In this document: positions 4,168 through 42,268 of the stretch, in pieces
Layout of the letters: each line of letters starts with the position of its first letter
Position numbering within the stretch: the stretch's first letter is position 1
Source: Bacillota bacterium
GTDB lineage: Bacteria > Bacillota > UBA994
Direction of reading: 5' to 3'
Length of the DNA stretch: 64,000 nucleotides
NCBI GenBank assembly: GCA_009773495.1
Contig: WSXW01000001.1
Coordinates: 62,001 to 126,000, forward strand
Notes under the pieces: generated by a model
The model's input: the letters and a program-made list of their open reading frames with translations, nothing else
The model's database searches: none
What the model was told of the DNA's origin: nothing
Position numbers and translations under genes: made by a program

Positions 4168-4239
4168 AGATTCCACCTCCCCGCCACAAATACTATTTCC
4201 ACGCGTCAAGCCATTATCCTGTATGTTTCTTAAAGTCTC

Positions 4240-4569
4240 CTATCTTGTAAACAACAACCTACGGATTATAGCAAGATTCTCAAAAATACGCACACCAAAG
4301 GCCACAAGAGCAGCTAGATATAGGTTGATGCCAATACGGTCCCCCACAAAGGCCAGCAGAGCCGCCAAAAGCGTATTACTAAGTAACCCACTGACGAAAA
4401 TTTTATCGTCAAACATTCCTTCTAAGGCAGCACGACAACCACCCAGTAAGGTATCAAACGCAGCTAGCAAAGCCACGGCTGTATACGGAGCCAAATGGCC
4501 GGGGATTGTGGCTTTAGTAACAAAACCTAAGGTCAAACCAAGGAGGAGTGCCATAGCAGGCAACAACAT
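4240..4569 (-). CDS. sbp: small basic membrane protein Sbp (DUF1290)
   Basis: About 109 aa with three or four hydrophobic segments (LLPAMALLLGLTLGFVT, LAPYTAVALLAAFDTLLGG, TLLAALLAFVGDRIGINLYLAALVAFG). This is the DUF1290 protein found beside ftsA/ftsZ in sporulating Firmicutes; its function is unknown. The start is the ATG one nucleotide after the upstream DUF881 stop, with AAAGGGGGTAAG as SD inside that gene's end, so the two are translationally coupled. Confidence 0.88.
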   Translation of the reverse strand: MLLPAMALLLGLTLGFVTKATIPGHLAPYTAVALLAAFDTLLGGCRAALEGMFDDKIFVSGLLSNTLLAALLAFVGDRIGINLYLAALVAFGVRIFENLAIIRRLLFTR

Positions 4570-4570
4570 A

Positions 4571-5290: not shown

Positions 5291-5293
5291 AAT

Positions 5294-6037: not shown

Positions 6038-6048
6038 ATTGCTCCCCC

Positions 6049-7308: not shown

Positions 7309-7410
7309 ACATGTTCACTCCTTCCACGCTAAGTGCATGCAATCTCTGCACCATCGTATGCTCAGGAGTAAAAAGGTGTTACAGCCGGACTCTAAGCTTG
7401 TCCCACACAC

Positions 7411-8505: not shown

Positions 8506-8518
8506 GTGTAGCGCCTCC

Positions 8519-9619: not shown

Positions 9620-9624
9620 TTGCT

Positions 9625-10608: not shown

Positions 10609-10609
10609 C

Positions 10610-11965: not shown

Positions 11966-13430
11966 TGAGTAACCTCAAGGCTGTTCTTGCTTCTTCGCGA
12001 TCGTCGAAATAGACTGTTCCGCCCCGAAATATTTGATAATTCTCATGACCCTTACCCGTAATTAGCACAACATCATTATCCTCTGCTAAAAAAATCGCCC
12101 TTTGAATGGCATTTCTTCTATCTGGTTCTACGATGACACGGTTCGCGGCACTAGCACCGTAAAAACCGGGCAGGACATCTTCGATGATGCGCAACGGGTC
12201 TTCGCTACGCGGGTTATCTGATGTGAGTATTGCCACATCGGATAACTTAGCGGCAATTGCACCCATAAGGGGACGCTTGCCACGGTCCCTGTCGCCTCCG
12301 CACCCAAAAACCACAATGACTCGATCACAGGCAAATCCCCTAGCCGCTTGCAACACATTCTCCAGTCCATCGGGACTATGAGCGTAGTCAATAAAAACGG
12401 CGAAGCTCTGCCCCTCATTCACCTGCTCCATTCGCCCAGGGACGGGTGGCATCTGTAGCCCTTGAGCTATGGCTTGAAGGCTGCATCCCTCGGCGAGGCC
12501 GGCTCCAGCTGCTGCTAAGGCGTTGTAGATGCTATGCTTTCCGGGAGTAGAAATGGAACACTCAATTTCGCCTTGCGGTGTGACTAGTACAAAACTTGAC
12601 CCCAGTGAGCCGGATTTGATGTTCTGTGCGGTAATGTCCGCCGAGCAATCAATGGCATATGACATAACCCGGACTGAAGTAATCGAGACTAGCCTTTGCC
12701 CCCATGGGTCGTCAACATTAATAACGGCAGTCTTAGCTGGCTTTATGGCATTCACGCCGAGCCGAGTAAACAGTTGTGCCTTGGCTGCAAAGTAATCCTC
12801 CATCGTACCATGTAGATCAAGATGATCCTGAGTCAGGTTGGTAAATACAGCCGTGTCATATTCAACGTTGTCTACTCGGTGCTGCACTAGTGAGTGTGAT
12901 GAGACTTCCATAACGGCGTGGCTAATGCCACTGTCCTTCATTCGCTTCAGCAACGCCTGCAAATCATGAGCTTCAGGAGTTGTGAATTTTACCGGGATGA
13001 TTTCCTGGCCGACCTCTATTTGCACGGTGCCTATCATACCCGTCTGTAGACCTTGCTCCCGCAAGATAGCACGGATCAAAAACGCTGTGGTAGTCTTGCC
13101 ATTAGTCCCTGTTATCCCAACCAGGCGTAGACTTCGCGAGGGATGCCCATAGAAGGCTGCCGCGATAATCGATAAGACTATGCGACTATCTTCTGCTAAT
13201 GCCCAAGCTATCTGTGCCGGCAAATCTACAGGCCTTGTAGTGATTACCCCCCCTGCTCCTTGCGCTAGGGCTTGAGTGATGAAGTCGTGCCCATCTACGC
13301 GTGCACCTTTGATTGCCACAAAGATGTTACCCGGACGCACTTCGCTTGAAGAATGTGTGACCCCCGTCACCGTTGCGTCCCCACGCAGTTCCATCACGGG
13401 AGCATGCTGCAACAGGTCACGAAAATTCAT
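11958..13430 (-). CDS. murE: UDP-MurNAc-dipeptide:meso-diaminopimelate ligase MurE
   Basis: Adds the third residue of the stem peptide. 490 aa with P-loop GTNGKTTT (108-115), EVSSHSL, TNLTQDHLDLHGTMEDY and the specificity motif DNPR at 405-408. DNPR indicates meso-diaminopimelate rather than lysine, so the organism probably has m-DAP peptidoglycan. ATG start; follows the PBP gene by 23 nt. Confidence 0.97.
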   Translation of the reverse strand: MNFRDLLQHAPVMELRGDATVTGVTHSSSEVRPGNIFVAIKGARVDGHDFITQALAQGAGGVITTRPVDLPAQIAWALAEDSRIVLSIIAAAFYGHPSRSLRLVGITGTNGKTTTAFLIRAILREQGLQTGMIGTVQIEVGQEIIPVKFTTPEAHDLQALLKRMKDSGISHAVMEVSSHSLVQHRVDNVEYDTAVFTNLTQDHLDLHGTMEDYFAAKAQLFTRLGVNAIKPAKTAVINVDDPWGQRLVSITSVRVMSYAIDCSADITAQNIKSGSLGSSFVLVTPQGEIECSISTPGKHSIYNALAAAGAGLAEGCSLQAIAQGLQMPPVPGRMEQVNEGQSFAVFIDYAHSPDGLENVLQAARGFACDRVIVVFGCGGDRDRGKRPLMGAIAAKLSDVAILTSDNPRSEDPLRIIEDVLPGFYGASAANRVIVEPDRRNAIQRAIFLAEDNDVVLITGKGHENYQIFRGGTVYFDDREEARTALRLLNE

Positions 13431-26036: not shown

Positions 26037-27005
26037 TCAGTTACTCGCCACGACCCGATTATGTCCATACTTGCCACAGCGATCTCCCCAGAAGGCCACA
26101 ATTTCTCCATTCAGGGAGAACTGCACTACTTCGCAATTGTTGCCACACCCTGTGCAAGAAACGCCTGTAGCTTGGCAATCAGCATCGGCCACGTCGAAGC
26201 CTCTAAAGGTCGATACCGTTTTTATTTGCTCTGCTAAGTAGCATGCACCGAGCGCGCCCATGACACTGTAGTGTTCAGGAACATGAACTGGTAAGCCCAG
26301 CGCCTCTTCAAACGCTCGTCTTATCCCTACATTTGCCGCAACTCCCCCTTGGAACACCACGGGACTTACAATCCCCTTTCCTTTGGCTACGTTGTTGAGA
26401 TAGTTGCGGACCAAGGCCTCACACAAGCCGGCCACGATGTCCGATGTAGAGTGCCCGACCTGCTGTTTATGAACCATATCTGATTCTGCGAACACCGCAC
26501 ACCTACCTGCTATGCGGGTAGGTGTCTTTGCGTTAAGCGCCAGCTGACCCAGTTCCTCAATGGGGATTCCTAAACGGCTGGCTTGCCTGTCTAGAAAGGA
26601 CCCTGTTCCGGCAGCACAGACCGTATTCATAGCAAAGTCAGTCACGACGCCATGATTGAGGATAATAATTTTAGAGTCCTGACCGCCAATTTCTAAAATA
26701 GTACGAGTGCCTGGTACGCAACGCAATGTTGCTGTGGCGTGCGCTGTAATTTCGTTTTTCACCACATCTGCCCCGACGATTGCTGCAGCCAGCATTCTGC
26801 CACTACCAGTTGTACCTACTCCCACTATCTCTGCATCCTGTGGGATGAGGGCACTTATCTCCTTAATCCCTTGTTGTATTGCCAAAATGGGTTGCCCTTG
26901 TGTCTTTAAGTACAGCGTTCCTAATACCTCCCCCGAGGCGTTACTGGCGACTACATTCGTACTAACCGAACCGACGTCAATTCCTAAATAAACTTTACTT
27001 TGCAC
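26037..27005 (-). CDS. 2-hydroxyacyl-CoA dehydratase activase-like ATPase (HgdC/BcrAD family)
   Basis: 322 aa ASKHA-fold ATPase: YLGIDVGSVSTNVV, LEIGGQDSKII, and the two cysteines that bridge a [4Fe-4S] cluster between subunits, CAAGTGSFLD and GRCAVFAESD. A C-terminal extension carries SCTGCGNNCE, an extra cysteine group seen in large CoA-activase proteins. Classical members inject an electron into dehydratases or benzoyl-CoA reductases; the partner here is unknown. GTG start overlaps the upstream gene, with GGGTGG as SD. Confidence 0.9.
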   Translation of the reverse strand: MQSKVYLGIDVGSVSTNVVASNASGEVLGTLYLKTQGQPILAIQQGIKEISALIPQDAEIVGVGTTGSGRMLAAAIVGADVVKNEITAHATATLRCVPGTRTILEIGGQDSKIIILNHGVVTDFAMNTVCAAGTGSFLDRQASRLGIPIEELGQLALNAKTPTRIAGRCAVFAESDMVHKQQVGHSTSDIVAGLCEALVRNYLNNVAKGKGIVSPVVFQGGVAANVGIRRAFEEALGLPVHVPEHYSVMGALGACYLAEQIKTVSTFRGFDVADADCQATGVSCTGCGNNCEVVQFSLNGEIVAFWGDRCGKYGHNRVVASN

Positions 27006-28098
27006 GGTGTTCCACCCCCGTAGCTATGGCTTGCCTAGTATGCAACATATCAACAAACGCCTCTAGTCTTGTCTGTAGCCCAGCTTCACCCGAGTGCTCA
27101 TCCAAAATCAAAGTCATTATCGGAAGGCTAAAATCCTTGCTGATTCTAGGCAGTATACTCTGCGCTACGATTTCCGGCATACACGTCAGGGGAAGCACCT
27201 GGATGATGCCATCAATTCCTTCGTTAGCATAGAGAACGCTGTGGCCGATTGTCTCTAGACCGTGCCCGCCGACATGTCCTCGCAAATATGGTGCTGCTGC
27301 ACGCTTTACTTTACGCGCGTGCAGTTTTGCCCGTGGCTCTGGTAGAAGATGCTCACATACCCAATCGCTAAGATAGAGACTGCGGTGCACCTCTATTCCC
27401 ATCCTCCCCAGGCGCTTCTCAAACTCTAGGTTAACCTTAGGTTCGAGCAACATGTAGATCTCACCGACCACCCCTACCTTCAAAGGTTTCTGCTGGCGAA
27501 TAGGAAGGGTCTTGATCATCCAGTCGATATGTTGCGCGGACTCTCTAAGTTCGCGAAATGTGCGAGTTTTACCCACTGTACGTAACGTGTCGTTCCAGAT
27601 GCGGTCACACGCACCCGGTAGCATTTCTACTGCCCTCAACCTATTTAGAGTCTGCTCTACATGATCAAGCGATTTTCCCAGACGCCATGCAAAATAGAAT
27701 ATCTCCGCTACTTTTGCAAAACTATTCCCATTGGCTAAGGGCGAAAGCTTGTGCCAAATCTCTGTAATCATACCCAGCGGGGGCTCCAACACTAGCATAT
27801 TTACGTTCAGCCCCAGGTCCTGTAGGATCTCGCGCTGCAATTCGGCATAGTAACCAAATCGACAAGGCCCTATGCCGCCTGCCATAATAACTGTGTCAGC
27901 GCCATTTTCTGCGGCCTCTATATAATTGCCTATATTGACCTTAAATGGGAGACAGACGCACTCGGGTGAATATTGAGCTCCGATGGCCAATGTCTTACCC
28001 GTTATGGGTGGAGGGGGGACTACATCTAAGCCTAAGTTTTCAAGTAGTGCTTGTAGGGCGATGCTGCAAGTTCCCATGTGAGGAAATGTTACTCGCAT
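26995..28098 (-). CDS. acyl-CoA dehydratase activase-related protein (DUF2229/HgdB-like), gene 2
   Basis: 367 aa. MRVTFPHMGTCSIALQALLENLG, SPECVCLPFKVNIGNYIEA and GGIGPCRFGYYAELQ carry conserved cysteines typical of 2-hydroxyacyl-CoA-dehydratase-like double-cubane proteins; LILDEHSGEAGLQTRLEAFVDML is shared with the next upstream protein. In many Clostridia these modules form one very large protein with the activase. Overlaps the upstream gene by 59 nt and the activase by 11 nt, so one operon. Function in vivo is not known. Confidence 0.85.
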   Translation of the reverse strand: MRVTFPHMGTCSIALQALLENLGLDVVPPPPITGKTLAIGAQYSPECVCLPFKVNIGNYIEAAENGADTVIMAGGIGPCRFGYYAELQREILQDLGLNVNMLVLEPPLGMITEIWHKLSPLANGNSFAKVAEIFYFAWRLGKSLDHVEQTLNRLRAVEMLPGACDRIWNDTLRTVGKTRTFRELRESAQHIDWMIKTLPIRQQKPLKVGVVGEIYMLLEPKVNLEFEKRLGRMGIEVHRSLYLSDWVCEHLLPEPRAKLHARKVKRAAAPYLRGHVGGHGLETIGHSVLYANEGIDGIIQVLPLTCMPEIVAQSILPRISKDFSLPIMTLILDEHSGEAGLQTRLEAFVDMLHTRQAIATGVEHRAK

Positions 28099-29053
28099 GC
28101 TCTGACCTCCCTTTAACCATATCGATAAATGCTTCGACTCGTGTAACTACCCCTGCTTCACCGCTGTGCTCATCACCGATTAAGTGCATGAACGGAAACT
28201 CGCTGCGGCGCGCGTTACGTTCCAAGAGATCGGCAATAAGCGACTCTAGCCCACAACCAAAAGAAGACAAAACAATTATTCCGTCGACCTCACGGGGGGT
28301 TTTCACGAAGTATAGCCCTGCTCCCAGCACCTTTTTACTTAAGGTCCAGAATAGCTCCTTAGATAAACCCTGTAAGCCCACATCAATCTTATGCTGTGGC
28401 AACATTTCGGCAGTCACTACATCAACGCCGCTACGACGAAGTTGCTCAATAAGGCTCATGCTTAGAACTGGATCATAAACGTTGTAGGGATGACCTAAAA
28501 CAGCTACCTTCATACGTACACCAGGAGTCCTGCGCCACGCGGTTCCATGAAAAGCTTCTTCTGGGGTCAAACCAGACATCAGACGCTGCTCCACTTTGTG
28601 GTTCTCGCCTAAAGATAGGTAAAAAGCACGTAGTGTCGGCCAAACTGACTTGCCAAGCGTATGGCGGGCCTCTGACAATGCTCTCGCTATAGACATCTTG
28701 CCCCGGCTTAGATCGACATCTGGTGACAAAAGTTCCGGCATCTTATTCCCGCTATGCTTAACCATATCTGGTAGACCCATAAGTTTAGGGCAAATGTACG
28801 CCCGTGGTTCAACACTAACTAGGCGAGGCACAAACACATAGTCTACTTTATCGGCTAGGTCAAGAACATGACCAAAGGCTACTTTCACGGGCGCGCACAC
28901 CTCGTCTACGGTAGCCTGGGTGCCTAGATTGAGGATCCTTTCGTTGGTAGGTGGCGACAACACAACCTTACATCCTAAATCAGTAAGAAACCGTTGCCAC
29001 ATAGGGAAATATATATAATATAACAAGGCCCGCGGTACTCCAATTGTTACCAC
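28040..29053 (-). CDS. acyl-CoA dehydratase activase-related protein (DUF2229), gene 1
   Basis: 337 aa. VTIGVPRALLYYIYFPMWQRFLTDLG, ATVDEVCAPVKVAFGHV, FVPRLVSVEPRAYICPKLMGLPD and SSFGCGLESLIADLL are typical of the DUF2229 module; IGDEHSGEAGVVTRVEAFIDM is homologous to the end of the following protein. Several conserved cysteines suggest Fe-S binding. GTG start with GAGGTG upstream. First gene of the three-gene set. Confidence 0.87.
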   Translation of the reverse strand: MVTIGVPRALLYYIYFPMWQRFLTDLGCKVVLSPPTNERILNLGTQATVDEVCAPVKVAFGHVLDLADKVDYVFVPRLVSVEPRAYICPKLMGLPDMVKHSGNKMPELLSPDVDLSRGKMSIARALSEARHTLGKSVWPTLRAFYLSLGENHKVEQRLMSGLTPEEAFHGTAWRRTPGVRMKVAVLGHPYNVYDPVLSMSLIEQLRRSGVDVVTAEMLPQHKIDVGLQGLSKELFWTLSKKVLGAGLYFVKTPREVDGIIVLSSFGCGLESLIADLLERNARRSEFPFMHLIGDEHSGEAGVVTRVEAFIDMVKGRSEHASNISSHGNLQHRPTSTT

Positions 29054-29967: not shown

Positions 29968-31188
29968 TTATTCAGGTATATCCTCATCCTCAATTGCCCG
30001 CTCTTCCACAAGAGGTTCTTCTTGATTGGCTCCCAAGGGGCGAGGGAAGGGTTTCCATACAATGCTCGCCTTGGGCTTTCTGACTTTGGGTTGAAGTTCC
30101 TCTATCTCTCCTAACTGCTCCTGTAGCACCTCAACTTCATCTACCTTTCCCTCTCCCCCCTGTTCCGCCACTGGAGTTTCCTCTACTACTACCGGCACTA
30201 CATCCAGACGCTTGTCTTCACTCTTCAATTCGCAACCTCCTTTTCCCATCCTCTTTGCAATCACAAGGTGCTCGCTCAACCAGTCTAACCATTCACGTTT
30301 GCGCTGCAGTTGCTCTAAAGTAGTCAAGCCTTTTAATAACGGACGCCCTCGCGTCATGTCATCGAGTTCTTGAGCCCACTCGTGCGGATATGTTAGATAG
30401 GCGAAAAGCATTTGACATTCTATATCTGACATTGGATGAACTGCCTGATACGCGGCTAAAAGGTGCAAGCATGTATCTCCTGTGTATCCACTATCGAGCA
30501 GTAACTCAGCCAGACCTATGTAATTAGCTTCTACAAAGCAGTCATGCGCATAGTTGAGGTGAACTGTATGGCCTTCGCTTACATATACGAATTTTCCAAA
30601 AGACAAGTGTGCAAAGGAAATTACGGGCTGGCCGTCATAGATTCGCTCTAGTTCTTCGAGTGACGATAGTGATTCTTCAGCTTCATTAAGTAACTGGCGC
30701 AAAGCTTCCCCGCGGGCGGCCTGTCGGTATTTGTGCACCGCGAGTTGCCAGTAGGCAGCACGCTCGCGGGCCCCCAAACGCCAAAGGGGAGACACCCGGC
30801 CTTCTGGTTGAGGACAAAAATACAGTATGTCTTCCGATGCCCGGTGGACATGGCCTAGCAGCCTTCCGATGGCCCTCACTTCAAATGTATTAGCCGCGTC
30901 ACAGGCTGCACCGCGAACATAATTGGTCAAAAATACCTGGTTTTTTGAAATATTTACCACTAAATCTCCCGTGTTTGTACGCAACAATGAGCCCAGGCCC
31001 TTGACTCCGCGCTTTGCCAATTCGTCTAAACAAGAACCAACCCACACAATATCGCAAGCAGCACCAACGTAGAGATGAACGGCTGCCAGCCCCTCCCGGG
31101 TGATGAGGCAGCACTCTTTGTCGACCAAGTGAGATTTGGGCTTGAGCCCATACAACGTTGAGATTTCTGCTAGGCTGGCATCTAGCAA
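29968..31188 (-). CDS. CotS-family spore coat protein with acidic C-terminal tail
   Basis: 406 aa. The first ~330 residues resemble the CotS/YutH kinase-like (aminoglycoside phosphotransferase fold) spore coat proteins: start MLDASLAEISTLYGL, LYVGAACDIV, GHVHRASEDI, FAHLSFGKFVYVSEGHTVHLNY and a DISDIECQM-like region. The canonical catalytic HGD..N..D is not evident, so it may be structural. Residues ~330-406 are a low-complexity tail rich in E, V and P (EEVLQEQLGEIEELQP). TTG start, GAGGGG upstream. Own terminator. Confidence 0.75.
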   Translation of the reverse strand: MLDASLAEISTLYGLKPKSHLVDKECCLITREGLAAVHLYVGAACDIVWVGSCLDELAKRGVKGLGSLLRTNTGDLVVNISKNQVFLTNYVRGAACDAANTFEVRAIGRLLGHVHRASEDILYFCPQPEGRVSPLWRLGARERAAYWQLAVHKYRQAARGEALRQLLNEAEESLSSLEELERIYDGQPVISFAHLSFGKFVYVSEGHTVHLNYAHDCFVEANYIGLAELLLDSGYTGDTCLHLLAAYQAVHPMSDIECQMLFAYLTYPHEWAQELDDMTRGRPLLKGLTTLEQLQRKREWLDWLSEHLVIAKRMGKGGCELKSEDKRLDVVPVVVEETPVAEQGGEGKVDEVEVLQEQLGEIEELQPKVRKPKASIVWKPFPRPLGANQEEPLVEERAIEDEDIPE

Positions 31189-31255: not shown

Positions 31256-31295
31256 TAAAAATTGAGAGTGGGGATGATGGAAATCATCCCCACTC
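31256..31295 (-). terminator. terminator of the ATP-grasp/GNAT operon
   Basis: A 13-bp perfect stem (GAGTGGGGATGAT with ATCATCCCCACTC) and a TTCC loop are followed by TCAATTTTT on the minus strand. It lies about 50 nt after the GNAT gene and before the CotS-like gene. Confidence 0.85.
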
Positions 31296-31347: not shown

Positions 31348-31836
31348 TCAGTTCCTGGCAGGTGTATTTCGTTCCCTCAATCCTAATGCCAAGGCCTGAG
31401 GGCCATCCGTTTTCAGCCTCAACACTACCTTCCCTGTATCGCGTACAAACACGCTATGAGCTCTCAGTCCGCAGGCGAAGGCTAATTTTAGACTAGGCAC
31501 ATTATCAGAAGCTATTTCCACATGAAACTTACCCAGCTCAGCTATGGCTCGTCGTAGTAGCTCCTTGCCTACGCCTTTACTGCGCTCAGCTTTTCGAACA
31601 ACAGCTAGAGAAAAATCCTGACCGTGTTCCTTACATGCGAGAACTCCTAGAAGTCTGTTTTGCTCTGTTGCAAGCAGCACGATTGACCCTATCCCCGCTA
31701 AATCATCTCCTGTCAAAGATCTAAGCCTTGAATTGGTTTCGGGGGTAATATGGCGGTCCTTATAATTGGCCACAAAAGCTAGAACCCTTTTCCGCAGACG
31801 CGGCCAAGTTTCAGGGCTAACACTAGTAATCAACAT
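31348..31836 (-). CDS. GNAT-family N-acetyltransferase
   Basis: About 162 aa. The acetyl-CoA pyrophosphate loop is RKAERSKGVGKELLRRAI and the C-terminal region NVPSLKLAFACGLRAHSVFVRD fits the GNAT fold. Substrate unknown. It overlaps the end of the ATP-grasp gene upstream by 14 nt, so it is part of that operon. GNAT enzymes are described as partners of amidoligase gene sets. The second ATG is chosen for its spacing to GAGG. Confidence 0.82.
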   Translation of the reverse strand: MLITSVSPETWPRLRKRVLAFVANYKDRHITPETNSRLRSLTGDDLAGIGSIVLLATEQNRLLGVLACKEHGQDFSLAVVRKAERSKGVGKELLRRAIAELGKFHVEIASDNVPSLKLAFACGLRAHSVFVRDTGKVVLRLKTDGPQALALGLRERNTPARN

Positions 31837-33160
31837 GGTCATCTACCTCATGCCTCTGATACCCTGACAAATACCTACTAAACTCAACCAACCTGCGCAG
31901 CGATTTCCGGCGAATAATCGGTTCATCAAATTTCATAGGCTTGGCGTTGGCCTCAAAAAAGTAGCATTCACCATCACTAGTAATACCAATGTCCATTGAG
32001 AGTTCCCCAAAGAGGCGCTTATAGTGATTCTCAATCGCAGGGGCCACAGTTAAGGCTAGGTTTCTTAATTTTGTGTAAACTCCGCCTGGAGTATCCAGCC
32101 TCTCATGAAAGACGTCACTGATGACGGTCTCAATCGGAGCTATATAACCGCCATTGGGGACATGAGTGGTAATGCCACCCCGTGCCGCTACCCTCACCCC
32201 CGCGCCAGTTAAATCCCAAACTCCCTCCCCTGTCTTCTGCATAATAATACGTGCGTCAAAGATAGCGCCCTTGTACTTTGCTAACCGTAACCCTTGCTGG
32301 ACAAGATATATCCCTGGGTGGCGCCTAGCGCTAAACGACTGCGCTAAGCCCCTAAAATTCTCATGTGGTTCGTGCCTATAAGTCCCCCCTACTTTATAAA
32401 TCAAAATGTATTTTCCGCCCTTGTATTCGGCTCTCATAATACCGTGCCCTGCGAAGGTATCCCGTGGCTTTAGATAGACCATGCGATGCCTCTTGAGCAT
32501 CGATAGTACATCCTCTGGTCCATGGTAGAGCTTTGTATCAAGAAGATACCGCCTCAGCCCTGGCTCCTGAGAAAAGATGCGGTGTAGATCCCATTTATTA
32601 AGAAAGTGAGGATTAAATATCGCTGTACGATGACTGTGAGCGAGCTGCTCAAACCTTTTCTTTGCCATACGCACTACCTGCGCAACTTCAGACTGCCTGT
32701 CAGGTATGCGATTATAAACTACATTTGGCAATGGGTATTCATGAGCCAACCAATTCCCCGCTTTACTCTGGTGGTATCCAATAACACGCATGCGTTTAAA
32801 GTCAACATCTTCACATGCGAACACATATGCTACAGACCCCATGCTCCTCGCCATCTTAAGCAGAGCTACATAGGTTTCTCTTCTTCCACGCAGCCCTTGG
32901 AATCCCTTGGTACCCCTTGGGCGCTTGTTCGTCATAATGCCAATGTAGGGGCCTAATTGTAAGGCATCCCCCGCTTGCCAGAAACTTACCTGTTGCCTAG
33001 GCCTGATTCCTAGCCTGAGAGCGTCTCCTCTAGAAACATGTAACAAAACGCCATCTGAGCCTGTAGTCAGCTTCCCCTCACCACGCGCCAGACCACCCAT
33101 TAACCAGACTTTCTCTCCACCTATTTGATTATCTGACACGACAACACGTGCCTGTTCCAT
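31823..33160 (-). CDS. YheC/YheD-type ATP-grasp protein, paralogue 1
   Basis: About 445 aa. N-terminal ~90-residue domain ends in LQLGPYIGIMTN, then a linking region with VAYVFACEDVDF and PNVVYNRIPDR, NPHFLNKWDLHRIF, and the ATP-grasp part: VYLKPRDTFAGHGIMRA, FDARIIMQKTGEGVWDLTG and the metal-binding MDIGITSDGECYFFEANAKP. The Bacillus YheC/YheD relatives are endospore coat-associated. Start is the second of two ATGs after AGGAGGTG. The preceding paralogue ends 12 nt upstream. Confidence 0.9.
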   Translation of the reverse strand: MEQARVVVSDNQIGGEKVWLMGGLARGEGKLTTGSDGVLLHVSRGDALRLGIRPRQQVSFWQAGDALQLGPYIGIMTNKRPRGTKGFQGLRGRRETYVALLKMARSMGSVAYVFACEDVDFKRMRVIGYHQSKAGNWLAHEYPLPNVVYNRIPDRQSEVAQVVRMAKKRFEQLAHSHRTAIFNPHFLNKWDLHRIFSQEPGLRRYLLDTKLYHGPEDVLSMLKRHRMVYLKPRDTFAGHGIMRAEYKGGKYILIYKVGGTYRHEPHENFRGLAQSFSARRHPGIYLVQQGLRLAKYKGAIFDARIIMQKTGEGVWDLTGAGVRVAARGGITTHVPNGGYIAPIETVISDVFHERLDTPGGVYTKLRNLALTVAPAIENHYKRLFGELSMDIGITSDGECYFFEANAKPMKFDEPIIRRKSLRRLVEFSRYLSGYQRHEVDDHVDY

Positions 33161-33171
33161 CATGTCACCTC

Positions 33172-34503
33172 CTAACCTATGAGGCCAAATCCGGCGACGT
33201 AATGGGCGTAAGCGCATACACAGTAAAGAGAATAGGCTCCGTCCCGCCTTGCCCAAACCGGGGCAAATATCATGCGTCCAGGTTTGGCGTTAGCCTCGAA
33301 CATATACACATTGCCCTCAGGTGTAATGCCCAGATCTAGCCCAAGTTCGCCCAACTTCATTTGCGTTGACTTTTCTAAGGCTTTGGCAACCTCTTTCCCA
33401 GCCTTAACCACCTGCGCATACAGCTCATCTTCCTTGCCAGGGAAAACTTCCCTGAGCACCCGCTTTAATGGATATACACGCCCTCCATTATGAACGTGGG
33501 TGGTTATCGCGCCAGTGATTGCCACCTTAGCGGCTGGTCCTACAGCATCCCATTCACCTAGACCGTTGCGATGCATAGTAACGCGCACATCAAATGTTCG
33601 ACCGCGAAACCGTGCTAGGCTCAACCCCTGCTGCACCACATAGTTACGCCGATGCCGCGCCGAAAAAATGTCAGCTGCCGCCTGAGCAAAGTTGTGATGC
33701 TTATGCTCCAGATTTGAGTGACCTACTCGATACGCTACAACAAATCCGCTTTTGCTTCGATGCACTCTCACGATACCTTGGCCCAAGCTACCTCCCACAG
33801 GTTTAACGTAAGCGTGATTATACTTAGCCAGTATAGTTTCTATGTCGCGTGAAGATCGCAATGGCTTAGTCTCAGGCAGATACTCCTCCACCTCGGGGAC
33901 AGTAGATAACCACTTATGCACCTGCCATTTATTGAAAAACCTAGGATTAAACATGTATACATGCTTAACCTGCGCCAGCTGCCGCAAGAAATTTCGGTAG
34001 TGAGGGGTTCTCTCCAAGCCTCGGTTAGGGACACGATTATAGATTACGTCTGGAAGCGGTAGCGTGACAACTGACAGTGCCCCACTACACTCAACACTGG
34101 CCCGCACTAACCGATGCGACCAATCTACGTCATGTGATGTAAAGGCATACACCAAGGCACCAATCTGATTACCATAACGCCTCAGCCCCTTGAATAGAGC
34201 GGAGCTTCCAACGCTTGCTCTAGATCCAAAGGGCACGGTCAACAACCCAATCAAGGGTCCCAAGTGGATCTCATCGCGCTCTTTATGGTATACGACATTC
34301 CCTTTGTAGCCGGCGGGGTAATGCAACCTTGCCCGCAGTAGGGGCGACAATAAGGGAGTATCCCCTTCATTCAAGCGAACCACGGCTTTAGCGACTGCAG
34401 ATCCAAAACGAACACTTATGTGTTGTGCGTTATCTACGCCCATGCTCTGAGCGAGCTTAGTAGGTAGATACAGCACGCAAGGCTGAGCCATGCGTTTATG
34501 CAT
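33172..34503 (-). CDS. YheC/YheD-type ATP-grasp protein, paralogue 2
   Basis: About 443 aa with the same order as paralogue 1: EIHLGPLIGLLT, ALVYAFTSHDVDW, LPDVIYNRVPNR, FNPRFFNKWQVHKWL, YVKPVGGSLGQGIVRV, VQQGLSLARFRGRTFDVRV and LGLDLGITPEGNVYMFEANAKPGR. These are the glycine-rich loop, the RTFDVRV core and the E..N metal site expected of a working ATP-dependent ligase. ATG behind GAGGTG; overlaps the upstream gene's end by 8 nt. Confidence 0.91.
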   Translation of the reverse strand: MHKRMAQPCVLYLPTKLAQSMGVDNAQHISVRFGSAVAKAVVRLNEGDTPLLSPLLRARLHYPAGYKGNVVYHKERDEIHLGPLIGLLTVPFGSRASVGSSALFKGLRRYGNQIGALVYAFTSHDVDWSHRLVRASVECSGALSVVTLPLPDVIYNRVPNRGLERTPHYRNFLRQLAQVKHVYMFNPRFFNKWQVHKWLSTVPEVEEYLPETKPLRSSRDIETILAKYNHAYVKPVGGSLGQGIVRVHRSKSGFVVAYRVGHSNLEHKHHNFAQAAADIFSARHRRNYVVQQGLSLARFRGRTFDVRVTMHRNGLGEWDAVGPAAKVAITGAITTHVHNGGRVYPLKRVLREVFPGKEDELYAQVVKAGKEVAKALEKSTQMKLGELGLDLGITPEGNVYMFEANAKPGRMIFAPVWARRDGAYSLYCVCAYAHYVAGFGLIG

Positions 34504-35617
34504 TGCTTGTTTCACCTCGATTTTTCCTTTGTAAGGCCAGGAATTTACTGTATTGCATAGGGCGGAGTACACTTGTACGACGCAGGTCGTATGCCCTAAT
34601 TCTCAAGAACACGGTGCGCCCAGGCTTGCTATTTGCTTCTATTAGCCACACGTGGCCATTCTTGTCTACGCCTAAATCCAACCCGAATTCGCCAAAACGC
34701 CCCAGCTCTTTGTCTAGTGCAGTTGGAATGCTAACTCCTAGCCAGTTGATTTTCTCTAATATCTCTTGATACCTGTCGGGAAACTGCTGCTTCAGTAAGG
34801 CCTCAGTCCTAAGAGCGCTACCCCCTCCATGTAGGTTTGATGTTATGCTACCTCTCCGCCCAACTCTCGCTGCTGTACCCGTGACCTCCCATTGACCCTG
34901 TTCGTTTTTCTGGACAATGGTGCGGATATCAAAAGTGCTGCCGCGAAAGTGGTTAAGATAGAGACCCTGTTGCACCAGTAATCGTCTACGGTGGCTAACG
35001 TTTCGAACCAAGTTCAACACACCGGTAAGCGTTTGTACATTAGTGCTAAAGGGACGGTTAAGGTTATCTCTGCCTCGGCACTTGTAACCATCACGCAGTG
35101 CATGGATCTGGACAACTCCTTTTCCTTGACTCCCTGCATCAGGCTTAATAAAAATAAAACTATGTTTTTTTATCATTGACCCCAGAACTGTTGTACCTGT
35201 GAGGGGCATCGTATCAGGGATATGCGGCTTTAAGTCAGGATACTTATAGGCCGAGCGATACACCTCCCATTTCCCCCTCAGGGCCCGGCCGAAGAACACT
35301 ATACTGCGTTGTTTGCGAAGTCGTTTAGCGGCACCAAACAGCATTCCAGATATACTCCCTCCTGGAAAGAGCCGATCATATACAACATCCGGAAAGGCGT
35401 AATATTTGGCGTGCCACGAACCTTTCTCTGGGCTAAAACTATAGCCGTAAATCTTTCTACCCACCCAATCTATATCTAGCGGGCAGAAGACAAAGGCTCG
35501 GAGCCCTAAGTACCTAGCAGAACGGATAAGCTGCCTGAAGTAGCCACTTTCAGAAAATGGGGCTAGGCCACTGCGGTTACGATAGGACATAATTCCCACA
35601 GTTAACGGATAGTTCAT
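34496..35617 (-). CDS. YheC/YheD-type ATP-grasp protein, paralogue 3 (short form)
   Basis: 373 aa. It begins directly at the VGIMSYRNR motif and so lacks the ~85-residue N-terminal domain of the other three. Then FVFCPLDIDWVGRKIYGY, PDVVYDRLFP, LRGKWEVYR, IFIKPDAGSQGKGVVQI, STFDIRTIVQKNEQGQWEVTG and GLDLGVDKNGHVWLIEANSKPGR, all intact. ATG with GAGGTGAG upstream; 21 nt after the amidoligase gene. Confidence 0.9.
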   Translation of the reverse strand: MNYPLTVGIMSYRNRSGLAPFSESGYFRQLIRSARYLGLRAFVFCPLDIDWVGRKIYGYSFSPEKGSWHAKYYAFPDVVYDRLFPGGSISGMLFGAAKRLRKQRSIVFFGRALRGKWEVYRSAYKYPDLKPHIPDTMPLTGTTVLGSMIKKHSFIFIKPDAGSQGKGVVQIHALRDGYKCRGRDNLNRPFSTNVQTLTGVLNLVRNVSHRRRLLVQQGLYLNHFRGSTFDIRTIVQKNEQGQWEVTGTAARVGRRGSITSNLHGGGSALRTEALLKQQFPDRYQEILEKINWLGVSIPTALDKELGRFGEFGLDLGVDKNGHVWLIEANSKPGRTVFLRIRAYDLRRTSVLRPMQYSKFLALQRKNRGETSNA

Positions 35618-35638
35618 GTTCTCACCTCACCAATCTAT

Positions 35639-37042
35639 TTACGGTCTATAAACCCTGCCGCGCGGAATGGATAATTCCCATGTTCTACGGATGTCAGCAC
35701 GCTCGTTCCAGGTGAGCTGCCCCTTGACCATGGTCTCTATTATTTCAAGATCTGCAGCGTAGAGCTTAAAGGTAGATGTCTTGCTTAATTCGGACCAAAT
35801 GCTAGCAAAGTGCGGTACGAAGTACTCGCGGTTTGCCGCTATGAAGGCTTCTTGCGCACTAGGCAGAAGAAACAGGTCTTGAGTCAATAATTGATATTCA
35901 CTCGCCAACACCTTAGCTAGGCACATGACCGCTTTTGTCACCTGGGGTGAGACTAGCCAGCTAGCAGGCGTGCGATACTCGAATCCACCGTGTTCTTTAT
36001 GCCGAAAATCTCCCAAGTATCCATACTTCTTTCTGCGCCTTCTTGCCGTACTCGGTTCTTCTAGCAACAGCAGTGGAACGGCCAAGTAATTATCCAAGAC
36101 CCTAATTAGTTGCCCACTTAAAGGGACCCCTACAAAATGAACGTGTCCCCCAATAGGAAATTTACCAAAAGGCATGCTACCTGCGCGCCATTGCACGTTT
36201 GAGTAGGGGGCAAGTCTCAGGGCCTTGTTCATTGTAATTCTAATATTTTCTACTAACTGCAACGGTGAATAACTTGGCTCTGGACGAAGTTCTGCCAGCG
36301 GGTAGCCAGATACCGCTCCCTTCACAAACCTCGCGTCACAACCCACCAAGCCATCTCTTGGGAAAAACCTAGACGCCATTATCAAACGGCCTGTGCGTCC
36401 ATCGCGTAGCATAAATTCTGGGTCGGCACCAATGGATACGATTTTCTCTAAATACGCAGGGTTTGCTTTTTGAAATATTGGCATTGTCTGGCGCAGTTCT
36501 GCCTCCCGGAGTCGTTTCCGGATGGGCTCTGCGTAAGCTTGTGCCAGGCGCTTGGTTAATCTAGGGCCAGCCTCGACACCTACGATATACTGACGTCCTC
36601 TAGTATCTACTCCTAACTCCACTAGACCGAAGTCTAGACCTAGTACATGAAGCGTCCGGGCCGCTAATATGGAGCCATCTCGGGCTTCTTTCGATTCACT
36701 CCAGCTGACATCATGCACATTTCTCTGACCAATCTCCTTACGCAGTATCCGGACAAGTGTCATATCAAACATATAAAATCTGTACTTTCTGTAGTAAAGA
36801 GTTCCAGAGGAACTATAGGGTATGCGGTTGATCTCAAAAAACTCGTTCATACGAGCCATATTTCTAATGGCCTGGGCCCTATTGAGGACTAAAGTTGCCG
36901 TATCTGTTCCCTCCGTAACACCCCAACGCAGGACTACCTGCACCCCAGTGTCAATTGGCGGGCTCTTATGAACATCTATTTCTGGAAGTAGGCTGGGCAG
37001 CAATTTGAACGTTGTGGGCTCAGTGTGAAGGATTATCGCCAT
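35639..37042 (-). CDS. amidoligase (COOH-NH2 ligase type 2) fused to an ATP-grasp-like N-terminal half
   Basis: 467 aa. Residues ~1-175 resemble the C-terminal part of the YheC/YheD ATP-grasp fold (YYRKYRFYMFDMTLVRIL; LDFGLVELGVDTRGRQYIVGVEAGPRL replaces the usual EANSKPGR), so this half is probably degenerate. Residues ~200-467 match phage phiEco32-like COOH-NH2 ligases with a glutamine-synthetase-like fold: GADPEFML (205-212), ELRPEP (251-256), GGHVHF (298-303), GGFEYRTPASWL. Such enzymes form amide bonds between carboxylates and amines. Clear SD AGGAGG. Confidence 0.83.
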   Translation of the reverse strand: MAIILHTEPTTFKLLPSLLPEIDVHKSPPIDTGVQVVLRWGVTEGTDTATLVLNRAQAIRNMARMNEFFEINRIPYSSSGTLYYRKYRFYMFDMTLVRILRKEIGQRNVHDVSWSESKEARDGSILAARTLHVLGLDFGLVELGVDTRGRQYIVGVEAGPRLTKRLAQAYAEPIRKRLREAELRQTMPIFQKANPAYLEKIVSIGADPEFMLRDGRTGRLIMASRFFPRDGLVGCDARFVKGAVSGYPLAELRPEPSYSPLQLVENIRITMNKALRLAPYSNVQWRAGSMPFGKFPIGGHVHFVGVPLSGQLIRVLDNYLAVPLLLLEEPSTARRRRKKYGYLGDFRHKEHGGFEYRTPASWLVSPQVTKAVMCLAKVLASEYQLLTQDLFLLPSAQEAFIAANREYFVPHFASIWSELSKTSTFKLYAADLEIIETMVKGQLTWNERADIRRTWELSIPRGRVYRP

Positions 37043-37051
37043 GTTAACCTC

Positions 37052-38413
37052 CTACTGCAGCCCCCGGCTGCGCAAAAAACGTACCAGCCTCACCACAGAC
37101 ATAGATACACGCCGCTGTCCTGCTTCATTTGTTTGTCTTCCTGGGCGGGAATTCGCTTCGATTATCCATATTTTGGCGTTTATATCTACGGCTAAATCTA
37201 TCCCCACCTCTGCAAACTCATACTCGATTTCTTTCTCTATCGCTAAAGCAGCCGCTTTAGCGATTCGTCGGATGCGCAGAGTCATAAGCGATGGCTTAAT
37301 ACTGGGGCCAAATACGGCAGCTATGGCACGCCTAGGGTTAATAATCTGTCCTCCATCGGCCAAATTAGATATGACGTTGCCAGGCTGAGCTACTCTGGCC
37401 ACCATGCTCTGTACAGTCCAATGATTCCGCGTGCTCTTTTGCAGTAGCACCCGAATGTCAAAGGGTCCGCCATTTAAGTGGGCTAAGCTTAGTCCACGCT
37501 GAACAATGTACTGGTCTTGCCTGAGCAGTCTTTCGGCAACCCTCACCATCCCGGCTACGGTTGAAGCCCGCCCACGATAATCTGGGTGGTCCAAGCGAGT
37601 TAGGCGATATGCGAAGCCCTTTGAACTACGTGCGACCCGCAGTATTCCCGCGCCTAAAGAACCCTGCGTTGGCTTCACGAAGACAACGGGGTACTTTTTC
37701 AGGTAGGTCTCAAGGATTTTAGAATTAACCAATTCTTGTGTGGGCGGAAGGTGTTTTTTCAGTTCAGGGTAACTCTCTAGCATTTTGTGTACATCCCATT
37801 TATTTAAAAACACCCTGTTGTAGTACTGCAGATTACTTATCTGCAACAGATTCTCCTTTGCAGTAGTCATGCGCGTTGAAGTTTCTGACCTACGACTAGC
37901 CACCCGATCATAGACAATGTCTGGTAAGGGACAGCGCATCCTTTTGGGAACAGCCCCAGTCCAGACCCAGCCCCGCACCGACTTTGAGACCCAATCAATA
38001 TCTCTAGGACTAAACGCATAGGCCAACATGCCTCGACGTCTTGCCAGCCGAACGCAATCGCGAATTATCTCCGTGGTTTGCCCAAACACTCCACCAGTAT
38101 TGGTGCGGCGCGAGCCCATAATGCCCAAAACTGGTCCTAGTCGCAACGAACTATAGTTTTTATCCCACCACATGTACAGGCAATCTTCGGGCGAGACATA
38201 AAGGCTATCGATTAGGTCCGAACTCAGAAATAATCGCTGCGGACGGCTATCTTGCTTGCTCAGTTCTATCTGCGCACAGGCCTCACTCTGTCCGACGCGT
38301 AGCCGAGTTGTACCAGCACGCAGGCCAAGTTCGTCCGCAAGACGATGTGACAATAACATTGTTCTTACTGGAGCTTCATCCCGTAAAACCTTGATTATTA
38401 CTCTCGCTCCCAA
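37052..38413 (-). CDS. YheC/YheD-type ATP-grasp protein, paralogue 4 (first gene of the operon)
   Basis: 453 aa, full-length form: N-terminal ~95 residues ending LRLGPVLGIMGSRR, AYAFSPRDIDW, LPDIVYDRVASRR, RVFLNKWDVHKMLESYP, VFVKPTQGSLGAGILRV, VQRGLSLAHLNGGPFDIRVLLQK and GIDLAVDINAKIWIIEANSRPGR. TTG start with GAGGGGAG upstream. Leads the operon that continues with the amidoligase, three more ATP-grasp genes and the GNAT; separated from cotE by a terminator. Confidence 0.9.
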   Translation of the reverse strand: MGARVIIKVLRDEAPVRTMLLSHRLADELGLRAGTTRLRVGQSEACAQIELSKQDSRPQRLFLSSDLIDSLYVSPEDCLYMWWDKNYSSLRLGPVLGIMGSRRTNTGGVFGQTTEIIRDCVRLARRRGMLAYAFSPRDIDWVSKSVRGWVWTGAVPKRMRCPLPDIVYDRVASRRSETSTRMTTAKENLLQISNLQYYNRVFLNKWDVHKMLESYPELKKHLPPTQELVNSKILETYLKKYPVVFVKPTQGSLGAGILRVARSSKGFAYRLTRLDHPDYRGRASTVAGMVRVAERLLRQDQYIVQRGLSLAHLNGGPFDIRVLLQKSTRNHWTVQSMVARVAQPGNVISNLADGGQIINPRRAIAAVFGPSIKPSLMTLRIRRIAKAAALAIEKEIEYEFAEVGIDLAVDINAKIWIIEANSRPGRQTNEAGQRRVSMSVVRLVRFLRSRGLQ

Positions 38414-38449: not shown

Positions 38450-38479
38450 AACATATGTTAGAAACCACTACTAAGGTGC
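38450..38479 (-). promoter_or_regulatory. possible sigma-K-like promoter of the ATP-grasp operon
   Basis: GCACC is followed after 17 bp by CATATGTTG; the sigma-K consensus is mACm-N16/17-CATANNNTA, so only the last base of the -10 deviates. It lies ~37 bp before the TTG of the first ATP-grasp gene. Weak on its own; supported by the coat-gene context. Confidence 0.4.
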
Positions 38480-38481
38480 AG

Positions 38482-38504
38482 AAAAAGCCGCCCCATTGGG
38501 CGGC
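38482..38504 (-). terminator. intrinsic terminator of cotE
   Basis: GCCGCCC and GGGCGGC pair over a 4-base loop and are followed by five T's on the minus strand. Located about 50 nt after the cotE stop. Confidence 0.85.
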
Positions 38505-38556
38505 CAAGCTAAGTATTCACGCACAGTCCTCATGCTGAGGCTGCAAGACATACTGC

Positions 38557-39123
38557 TTATGGACGGTCGTCGACGAACTCTTCGTCCTCGTCATCGATGA
38601 ACTCCTCAAAATCATCGGCATCCTCGTCGAACTCATCACCCTTCTTGTCATCGTCAGCAAAAGGTGGTTCGAAAACCTTTACCCAGAGTTTTGTCTCACC
38701 AACAATTTCGGCATAGAACTCCACATTAACTTCAATCTCTACTACGGAGCGACGAAGATGTACATCAAGGATACGAGGTTCCTTAACCAGTGTACACTTC
38801 ACACACTCGTCAACACCTAAGCGCACGCCTTCAAGATCCACCACCGGTAAGTGCTCCGTATAACATACAGTTTTCTTCTCCACACAGGTTTGGTTGCCTC
38901 CATCATACGCGTACCACACGTGGAGATCATACTGGCCAGTGATCTCTACCTTATTGTGCTTCGGGGATGCTACAAAACTATGACTCGTAACTCTGTAACC
39001 CAACACAGTCTCGGGAAGATTGGCAGTCTGCAGGGTAAACGCTTGCTTAAAGCGCTTTTGCCCCTTGGCACAGGTAGCCCTGACAAGAATATCTCTCAGT
39101 CCTCCTGAATCGCGATTCCACAT
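38557..39123 (-). CDS. cotE: outer spore coat morphogenetic protein CotE
   Basis: 188 aa (B. subtilis CotE is 181). RDILVRATCAKGQKRFKQAFTL, GYRVTSHSF, VEITGQYDLHVWYAYDGG, VCYTEHLPV and VEFYAEIVGETKLWVKV follow the CotE pattern, and the last ~30 residues are the very acidic C-terminal tail (DEDADDFEEFIDDEDEE). CotE directs assembly of the outer coat from the mother cell. The ATG is chosen for its SD (GGGGGG) and the homologous start; the longer reading has no support. A consensus sigma-K promoter lies 50 nt upstream. Confidence 0.9.
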   Translation of the reverse strand: MWNRDSGGLRDILVRATCAKGQKRFKQAFTLQTANLPETVLGYRVTSHSFVASPKHNKVEITGQYDLHVWYAYDGGNQTCVEKKTVCYTEHLPVVDLEGVRLGVDECVKCTLVKEPRILDVHLRRSVVEIEVNVEFYAEIVGETKLWVKVFEPPFADDDKKGDEFDEDADDFEEFIDDEDEEFVDDRP

Positions 39124-39173
39124 TGCAATTTCCCCCCCTTCGGTTCTGGCGTTAACTATGCCTAACGCTAGAC

Positions 39174-39202
39174 TATCGTATGACTGAGCGGGCAATGTTG
39201 TT
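39174..39202 (-). promoter_or_regulatory. sigma-K (or sigma-E) promoter of cotE
   Basis: AACA, then 16 bp, then CATACGATA: a full match to the sigma-K consensus mACm-N16-CATANNNTA. CATACGAT also fits the sigma-E -10 in 7 of 8 positions, in line with the dual sigma-E/sigma-K control known for cotE in B. subtilis. The cotE ATG is ~45 nt downstream of the expected start. Confidence 0.65.
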
Positions 39203-39248
39203 ACCCATCTGTCATGCTGCATCATATGAGGAAAGGCAGGAAGTTGTG

Positions 39249-39288
39249 AAAACGAAACAGCCACCACACAAGTAATGTGAGGTGGCTG
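39249..39288 (-). terminator. intrinsic terminator of the HtrA-like gene
   Basis: AGCCACCTCACA pairs with TGTGTGGTGGCT (one mismatch) over a short loop, followed by TTTCGTTTTC on the minus strand, ~26 nt after the stop. Confidence 0.75.
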
Positions 39289-39313: not shown

Positions 39314-40624
39314 CTAAAACTCCGCCTCCCACGGATACATCGCGCCGTACTGATACGGTGAATTATCTGCGCTAGTCACTTCACCGAGCTGCACATCAAT
39401 AGTATGCACGCTACCTCCACGGCGAATGTCAAGATAAATATGATCTCCTGGCACAAAAAGCTCTAGCTCATAGCGCAACTCGATAAGCGTAGAAATAGCC
39501 CTCCCATTAATACTTAATAATGAGTCAGATTCCAGTAATCCAGCCAAAGCAGCTGGGCTACTTGGTGCAATTTCTACAATAGTTAATCCTTGCGCTCCGG
39601 GTAGGCCTAGTCCTGCAAAATAAGACTCTTCTACAACCACCCCCAAGAAGGGCCTCACTACGCCGCGCTCACTAAAACGAGCAATAATGTCCTTCGCAAG
39701 GTTTATTGGAATGGCAAAACCAAGTCCTTCAACTCCGGGAGCAACAATCTTGGATGAAGTAATAGCTATCACGCGCCCGTTGTAGTCTACCAGTGGTCCG
39801 CCACTATTGCCACCGTTAATAGCTGCATCGGTTTGAATGAGGGGGTAAGCACTCTGATCCGCCCGATTCAAACCACTTATAACCCCTGCTGTTACGGTAT
39901 TACGTAGTCCCAACGAAAGAGGATTGCCAATAGCCAAGACCTGTTGACCGACCTCCACTTTGTCCGAATTACCAAACTCCGCTACAGGTAAATCAGTAGC
40001 GGTAACCCTTACTACAGCAATGTCAGATACATAGTCGTAATTCCACAGTTCTCCTTTTAAGACCCGGCCGTCGTTTAGGATGACATAAACCTCGCCCGTC
40101 TCTAAGCCCCTTTGTTTCACAACATGGGTGTTAGTTATAACCATGCCGTCAGCTGAGAAAATCACACCCGTGCCTTGGTCTATAATCTCTTCACCGTCGG
40201 GCAAAGTTTTAATAGCTATAATACCTACTACACTTGGCTTCACTTTAGACACAACAACGACAGATGACTGTTGAGGCGAGACCAGCAACCCCCTAATTAG
40301 GCCCTCTAAACGGGCTATATCTGCCCGTAATTTGCCCACCTCAGTAATTTGAGTAGCTTCAGGTGCTGTTGTAATACTAACAACGTGTTTGTTTTCTTCC
40401 CAATGCACAGTAGCACCCATGGCCTCTGTTACGAAGCGCAATGGAACTAATAGGCGTCCCTCAGCTATATGCGCTGGAACATCGGAGCTAATCTCTTGAC
40501 CATCAACATAAACCTTGGCTACGGGATAGCCTCGGTAAGCACCCCAAGGGGCCGATACAGAACTTGCTGAGATAGGCAAGAGGATTAGAATAACCGCAAG
40601 CAGCAGCGCAAGAGTTTTTTTCAT
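39314..40624 (-). CDS. HtrA/DegP-like serine protease with copper-amine-oxidase-like N-terminal domain
   Basis: 436 aa, exported: signal peptide (MKKTLALLLAVILILLPISAS), then a copper amine oxidase N-terminal-like domain at ~35-85 (KVYVDGQEISSDVPAHIAEGRLLVPLRFVTEAMGA), found in many clostridial envelope proteins. An S1C trypsin-like domain at ~120-320 has catalytic His in ITNTHVV, Asp in SDIAVV and Ser in GGNSGGP. One PDZ domain at ~325-425 (LTIVEIAPSSPAALAGLLESDSLLSING). Probably handles misfolded envelope proteins. Confidence 0.92.
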   Translation of the reverse strand: MKKTLALLLAVILILLPISASSVSAPWGAYRGYPVAKVYVDGQEISSDVPAHIAEGRLLVPLRFVTEAMGATVHWEENKHVVSITTAPEATQITEVGKLRADIARLEGLIRGLLVSPQQSSVVVVSKVKPSVVGIIAIKTLPDGEEIIDQGTGVIFSADGMVITNTHVVKQRGLETGEVYVILNDGRVLKGELWNYDYVSDIAVVRVTATDLPVAEFGNSDKVEVGQQVLAIGNPLSLGLRNTVTAGVISGLNRADQSAYPLIQTDAAINGGNSGGPLVDYNGRVIAITSSKIVAPGVEGLGFAIPINLAKDIIARFSERGVVRPFLGVVVEESYFAGLGLPGAQGLTIVEIAPSSPAALAGLLESDSLLSINGRAISTLIELRYELELFVPGDHIYLDIRRGGSVHTIDVQLGEVTSADNSPYQYGAMYPWEAEF

Positions 40625-41972: not shown

Positions 41973-42022
41973 ATGGTCAACACATAGGTAACACTTTATG
42001 GTCAAGACATGGGTAACACTTT
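41973..42022. repeat. tandem 25-bp direct repeat, probable IS end
   Basis: Two adjacent 25-bp units start ATGGTCAA and end GGTAACACTTT and differ at two positions (23 of 25). On the minus strand they read AAGTGTTACCCATGTCTTGACC-like, a sequence type common at insertion-sequence ends. They directly follow the truncated transposase reading frame. Confidence 0.7.
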
Positions 42023-42268
42023 TAGGTAACATAAACGCCGACAGGCCTGCTCCAATTTCCGGCTGGTATGGATACCGTTCATGTATCCGTATACCAGTAC
42101 CATAAATAGACTTTCCGGTGACCTCTCGATTCTCCCCGGCCTGGAGCACACCGCGTGCAATCTACTATAATCCATCCTTTCTAGCACGGCGTTGAGCAGC
42201 CTCACCGAATCATCATCAGGGATCATTACACCAATATCCATCGGAATTGCCAGTTGATATACACTCCC
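42002..42268 (-). mobile_element. IS1182-like transposase 5' remnant (copy A)
   Basis: The reading frame at 42241-42002 gives MDIGVMIPDDDSVRLLNAVLERMDY...SPESLFMVLVYGYMNGIHTSRKLEQACRR and then loses similarity. This is the N-terminal DUF772 region of an IS1182-type transposase (normally over 400 aa), so the element is inactive. The upstream GGGAGTGTATATCAA and the first 110 bp recur at 55541-55691. It ends at the tandem 25-bp repeats, suggesting a second IS end was joined here. Confidence 0.8.

Follow-up and report, generated by a model that had tools for sequence, protein, structure and literature searches.

Why would a bacterium keep four ATP-grasp ligases, an amidoligase and a GNAT-type acetyltransferase in one operon beside cotE, the gene for a coat morphogen? 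The operon lies in a 64,000-nucleotide stretch of a Bacillota bacterium of the class UBA994 (assembly GCA_009773495.1, contig WSXW01000001.1, forward-strand positions 62,001 to 126,000), here called the window, and all window coordinates count from its first letter. An earlier note, made from the letters alone, had read the operon as a mother-cell pathway making an amide-linked polymer or protein modification on the spore surface. Our analysis makes late use in the mother cell by active ligases very probable on sequence grounds, and we lean towards the fuller reading, a late mother-cell amide-ligation pathway that acts on the coat.

The ligase operon and its enzymes

The six open reading frames named in the earlier note all lie on the minus strand where it had placed them, and from ATP-grasp 1 to the GNAT (38413-31348) they form a single unit (Table 1). 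With the likely starts read from the sequence (ATG 34503 for ATP-grasp 3, ATG 33163 for ATP-grasp 4), neighbouring genes are separated or overlap by about 8-21 nt. Because terminator-like hairpins stand at both ends, we take the six genes as one unit and cotE as a separate neighbour: one hairpin closes the operon 3' of the GNAT, as the note had held, and the other lies in the interval towards cotE. As had been noted, cotE precedes the operon, but it is not part of it. A transcript starting with cotE and running into the ligase genes was considered and is unsupported, since a terminator and a separate promoter-like site intervene.

All four ATP-grasps far exceed the curated cut-off of PF14398 (ATPgrasp_YheCD; 26.8 bits), and the PF14398-family ATP-grasp genes found in the genome number four, all inside the operon. 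We aligned 79 ATP-grasps, including all four window copies, and numbered residues after ATP-grasp 1. Ten positions are invariant (K205, K247, G254, Q305, D319, R321, G354, D406, E419 and N421) and present in each window copy; those that bind ATP and Mg are K205, K247, Q305, D319, R321, D406, E419 and N421. The earlier note had described intact ATP and metal motifs and had named loss of catalytic residues in all paralogues as fatal to its reading; the alignment bears out the former and finds the residues in place. A structural model of ATP-grasp 1 (predicted local distance difference test, pLDDT, 93.9) has Ddl, TTL, RimK, glutathione synthetase (GSHS) and ArgX-LysW as its nearest solved folds. 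In a maximum-likelihood tree of 86 ATP-grasps, whose support falls below 95 at some deep branches, the sequences cluster by gene position and not by genome, and a Thermaerobacter metagenome-assembled genome (MAG; locus L057) contributes one ATP-grasp to each of the four groups. Because of this pattern, the sequences mark the four genes as ancient, separately maintained paralogues, with no recent duplicates among them.

The amidoligase is likewise far above the curated cut-off of its family (PF14395, COOH-NH2_lig; 25 bits). The invariant residues of 64 homologues include G205, D207, E209, E251, R253, H300, H302, R336, R347, E355 and R357, and the window ligase keeps all eleven. Its model (pLDDT 95.7) has glutamine synthetase (GS), YbdK, the gamma-glutamylcysteine synthetase (GCS) part of GshF, and RimK as nearest solved folds in Foldseek. 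A GS/GCS-fold catalytic domain spans residues 204-457; residues 1-200 form a degenerate lobe that, in the model, resembles the ATP-grasp C-terminal lobe (RimK, PsnB, Ddl) and lacks the ATP-binding lobe. We considered this N-terminal part as an active ATP-grasp and rejected it, because it has kept neither an ATP-binding lobe nor the E..N metal ligands. The gene had been called an amidoligase fusion; the COOH-NH2 ligase stands, and the fused partner is no working ATP-grasp. The folds that ATP-grasp 1 and the ligase resemble all belong to enzymes that join a carboxylate to an amine through an amide bond, and the operon's ligases are by analogy predicted to carry out the same chemistry. The GNAT match is weak (Pfam cut-off 23.6 bits), and the position of the gene is kept in the class loci and in the Thermaerobacter MAG.

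Table 1. Features of the ligase operon and its surroundings, with the interrupted ligase loci of two related genomes (window coordinates unless a locus is named)
Feature	Position	Strand	Remarks
ATP-grasp 1 (YheC/D-like, 453 aa)	37052..38413	-	PF14398, 230 bits
COOH-NH2 ligase (amidoligase, 467 aa)	35639..37042	-	PF14395, 336 bits
ATP-grasp 2 (373 aa)	34496..35617	-	PF14398, 256 bits; own orthologous group
ATP-grasp 3	33172..34572, likely start 34503	-	PF14398, 252 bits; own orthologous group
ATP-grasp 4	31823..33256, likely start 33163	-	PF14398, 220 bits; own orthologous group
GNAT-type acetyltransferase (164 aa)	31348..31842	-	PF13673, 28 bits
Terminator-like hairpin after GNAT	31266..31295	-	
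Sigma-K-type promoter-like site, ligase operon	38450..38478	-	CACC-N17-CATATGTT
Intrinsic terminator-like hairpin between cotE and ligase operon	38486..38505	-	
cotE-type gene	38557..39267, likely start ATG 39123	-	PF10628, 110 bits
Sigma-K-type promoter-like site upstream of cotE	39221..39248	-	CACA-N16-CATATGAT
CotS-derived protein	29968..31188	-	without kinase motifs; kept 3' of GNAT in families f1 and f3
Split amidoligase gene with element	L018 (G001) 6488-13232; L019 (G002) 3608-10212		

Recurrence beside cotE and in sporulating genomes

The earlier note had suggested looking for the same gene order in other spore formers, and it does recur. Two families of the class (f1 and f3) have the order cotE, ATP-grasp 1, ligase, ATP-grasps 2 to 4, GNAT and CotS-like gene; a third (f2) keeps the ligase set, with cotE elsewhere in the genome. 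A search beyond the class gave 369 candidate places for the ligase; we retrieved 80 of these Bacillota loci, and 53 of the 80 contain cotE. The full set occurs in the Thermaerobacter MAG, in the order cotE-ligase-g1-g2-g3-g4-GNAT (g, ATP-grasp gene), and shorter versions in Tumebacillus (cotE-g-g-ligase-g3-g4) and Alicyclobacillus (cotE-g-g-ligase-g4); these two genera and Thermincola have two to four ATP-grasps per set. Elsewhere in Bacillota, loci with ligase and cotE hold 0-4 ATP-grasps. A bare cotE-ligase pair is found in Paenibacillus, Ammoniphilus and Marininema, and in Aneurinibacillus (L101) it forms a two-gene unit with mutS downstream. In an operon copy on a 5.3 kb contig (L027, from G014), ATP-grasp 3 is missing and ATP-grasps 1 and 4 are frame-broken, through decay or assembly error.

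Promoter-like sites point to late expression in the mother cell. We searched for a sigma-K-type pattern (mACm, 16-17 nt, CATAnnnT). Such a site lies 5' of ATP-grasp 1 in 7/7 class loci, whereas dinucleotide-shuffled versions of these stretches gave at most 2/7 in 2000 trials. Across all loci, with related ones weighted equally, it occurs within 220 nt upstream of 36 of 114 unit-first genes and of 5 of 162 internal genes (p = 6.5e-11). The same type of site precedes cotE in many loci. The spacing agrees with that reported for sigma-K promoters of B. subtilis (PMC517825).

We also surveyed 399 Bacillota genomes, finding the ligase in 52, CotE in 51 and SpoIVA in 336. SpoIVA is present in 51 of the 52 ligase-bearing genomes, the exception being 61% complete, and the class members that lack the ligase have either no SpoIVA (G010, G011, G003) or a weak piece of it (G013). 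From these gene distributions, the ligase tracks the ability to sporulate. CotE was found in 30/52 ligase-bearing and 21/347 ligase-negative genomes (p 6.5e-18, in a test that, like the whole survey, ignores phylogeny).

Interrupted amidoligase and cotE genes

The most surprising part of the analysis is that the amidoligase gene and cotE are interrupted in some lineages. In two f2 genomes of the class (G001 and G002), elements of 5347 bp and 5210 bp, respectively, interrupt the ligase gene at one and the same codon, beside its catalytic GGHxH motif. Each element has one large serine recombinase (domains Resolvase, Recombinase and Zn_ribbon_recom) together with an epimerase gene and, in G002, an NlpC/P60 gene, and each is flanked by a direct-repeat core, of 10 bp in G001 and 14 bp in G002. 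Removing the element in silico restores a complete ligase frame in both. In neither genome did we find another closely similar copy of the recombinase, and simple patterns detected no mother-cell-type promoter before the element recombinases. Between the two genomes, synonymous sites of the split gene are saturated yet the proteins retain 67% identity, in line with the uninterrupted neighbours, which marks the split gene as maintained by purifying selection. In Aneurinibacillus tyrosinisolvens it is cotE that comes in two parts (L101:1810-3684 with L131): on contig C11 the 5' part breaks off close to the contig end, and on C30 a serine recombinase gene immediately precedes the 3' part. A simple repeat search found no shared attachment core at these junctions, the halves being on two contigs.

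In sigK, gerE, spsM and other sporulation genes, such elements are excised and the gene is rebuilt in the mother cell (PMC5595907, PMC4191935, PMC5025042). The elements described here are like skin, gin and other intervening elements in having a large serine recombinase and, at the amidoligase gene, a short direct repeat, with in silico removal restoring the frame; they differ in their targets, the amidoligase gene in two class members and cotE in A. tyrosinisolvens. By this analogy, we infer programmed excision, which would account for both halves staying intact and would favour use of the genes in a cell without descendants. Together with the sigma-K-type sites and the co-occurrence with SpoIVA and CotE, these skin-like interruptions support two parts of the mother-cell pathway proposed earlier, namely that its genes are expressed in the mother cell and that it serves the spore.

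Candidate pathway, rival explanations and neighbouring genes

The analysis establishes which genes are present and in what order, how widely they are conserved, that their catalytic residues are intact, which folds are predicted, the promoter motif and the association with sporulation genes. When the pathway is expressed, that it acts on the coat, how the couplings are ordered and what is made are all matters that we infer, as follows. Sigma-K RNA polymerase would transcribe the ligase operon and the adjoining cotE after forespore engulfment. The GS/YbdK-type amidoligase would then phosphorylate a carboxylate, by analogy probably a glutamate- or aspartate-type side chain, and couple it to an amine, while its N-terminal ATP-grasp lobe, with ATP binding lost, probably serves to position the acceptor. 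Next, as many as four YheC/D ATP-grasps, kin of Ddl, RimK, TTL, GSHS and ArgX, may attach more amino acids or amines, and an amine would be acylated by the GNAT. Several successive couplings, as the earlier note had envisaged, are plausible because the four ATP-grasps appear ancient and separately conserved. The acceptor would most likely be a coat component, either CotE, whose tail is acidic, or some protein or peptide of the coat in the CotE layer. We favour a coat component only slightly over other acceptors. ArgX and LysX use the acidic C-terminus of LysW as their acceptor; this analogy and the acidic C-terminal tail of the window CotE make CotE a candidate, although we consider its tail an improbable acceptor. 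The broadest version, in which amide ligation in the terminal mother cell tailors the CotE layer in many non-Bacillus Bacillota and some lineages need programmed excision in amidoligase or cotE, is tentative and somewhat short of even.

Several observations weigh against a coat-directed pathway of this kind. In Paenibacillus-type loci no ATP-grasp lies near the ligase, and the minimal cotE-ligase pair seen there and in other genera argues against a strictly linear pathway that needs all the ligases. The f2 operons show a conserved CATATTATA -10, with the consensus -35 absent. CotE went undetected in 22/52 ligase-bearing genomes and so is no obligatory partner or acceptor. We also tried the acidic CotE tail as a hallmark of ligase genomes and rejected it, since the Bacillus-type CotE of ligase-free genomes is equally acidic; for this reason the tail is to be taken as a lead. 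Finally, B. subtilis YheD self-associates and forms a shell around the forespore (PMC7911427), so that the ATP-grasp fold could have a structural role. Taken further, the ATP-grasps would be chiefly structural coat proteins, like the YheD shell, with catalysis secondary or lost. Yet a purely structural role would not keep the ATP- and metal-binding residues invariant in 79 Bacillota sequences, and we regard this as highly improbable.

The chief rivals are a small metabolite and a surface polymer. The enzymes would also suit a small amide-linked metabolite or peptide, such as a gamma-glutamyl peptide, that builds up in the sporulating cell or is released by it, with coat proteins unmodified. 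A GCS-fold ligase with GSHS-like ATP-grasps and a GNAT follows the logic of GSHS and GshF, and linked ligases of this kind are usually credited with peptide metabolites (PMC4431377, citing Iyer 2009). However, the conserved set includes no transporter, carrier protein or amino-acid-making enzyme, and its constant neighbour is the coat morphogen gene cotE, even in the two-gene cotE-ligase unit, which leaves a metabolite unlikely. A spore-surface polymer in place of a coat-protein modification, either a polyamino acid or a peptide-substituted polysaccharide like teichuronopeptide, would fit several ATP-grasps of the same type in series, of which ATP-grasps 1 to 3 weakly match PF14397, a sugar-transfer-associated ATP-grasp family; as no glycosyltransferase, polymerase or exporter is conserved with the set, we think it quite unlikely. 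The ligases might instead cross-link the coat in place of the spore transglutaminase Tgl, since Glu-Lys-type amide-bond chemistry fits and 47/52 ligase-positive genomes lack TGL. But TGL is rare altogether (16/399 genomes), and 5 of the 16 TGL-positive genomes carry the ligase too; the two are thus not mutually exclusive, exclusive replacement is rejected, and such a system is very improbable.

YheC/D proteins are catalogued as coat proteins without an assigned function. The window ATP-grasps are like B. subtilis YheC and YheD (PF14398) in domain, catalytic motifs and sporulation context, but here four distinct paralogues of ancient origin share an operon with an amidoligase and a GNAT. The control genome of B. 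subtilis gave no match to PF14395, and hence YheC and YheD have no such neighbour there. The amidoligase has the full-length catalytic domain and all invariant residues of COOH-NH2 ligase type 2 (PF14395, named after phage phiEco32), whereas here it is chromosomal, lies beside cotE and has an extra degenerate N-terminal ATP-grasp lobe. Like the glutathione enzymes YbdK/GshF and GSHS, the set pairs a GCS-fold ligase with ATP-grasp ligases; unlike in GshF, the domain order of the fused ligase is reversed and its ATP-grasp half is degenerate. In 2009 Iyer and colleagues described operons that combine ligases of the ATP-grasp, GS-like and GNAT types (cited in PMC4431377); compared with the account given there, the present set is tied to cotE and sigma-K-type sites. 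The open literature that we searched, in which Iyer 2009 was available via PMC4431377 alone, held no report of this exact operon, the cotE link, the sigma-K sites or the interrupted genes. The joining of YheC/D paralogues, a GS-type amidoligase and cotE raises a testable question, namely the identity of the amide bond formed in the coat, and amidoligase and cotE become two further candidate targets among the sporulation genes that recombinase elements interrupt. Tests are feasible in cultured relatives, among them Tumebacillus, Alicyclobacillus, Paenibacillus, Thermosyntropha lipolytica and A. tyrosinisolvens.

Among the neighbouring genes, the cotE product is well above the PF10628 cut-off of 25 bits, and ATG 39123 is its most likely start rather than GTG 39267. 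A 2012 survey saw no CotE in clostridial lineages (PMC3533761); CotE-family genes do occur there, in the window and the class loci. A CotS-like gene follows the operon, as had been noted, but its product does not qualify as a CotS-type spore kinase: it scores 42.5 bits against a TIGR02906 cut-off of 172.7, and no HxD- or DFG-like kinase motifs were found in the CotS-like proteins of the six class members compared. By sequence, it is probably a spore-coat pseudokinase. Directly upstream of cotE (39314-40624) lies a gene for an HtrA-type protease whose N-terminal domain is of the copper amine oxidase type, also seen at L026; in two Syntrophomonadaceae loci (L032, L040) an HtrA gene stands between ATP-grasp genes. 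On the other side of the operon, three 2-hydroxyacyl-CoA dehydratase activase / DUF2229 genes (26037-29053) follow a DUF421 gene and are kept beside the operon in f1. A short open reading frame at 42002-42241 resembles an N-terminal piece of an IS1182-type transposase and is probably a remnant.

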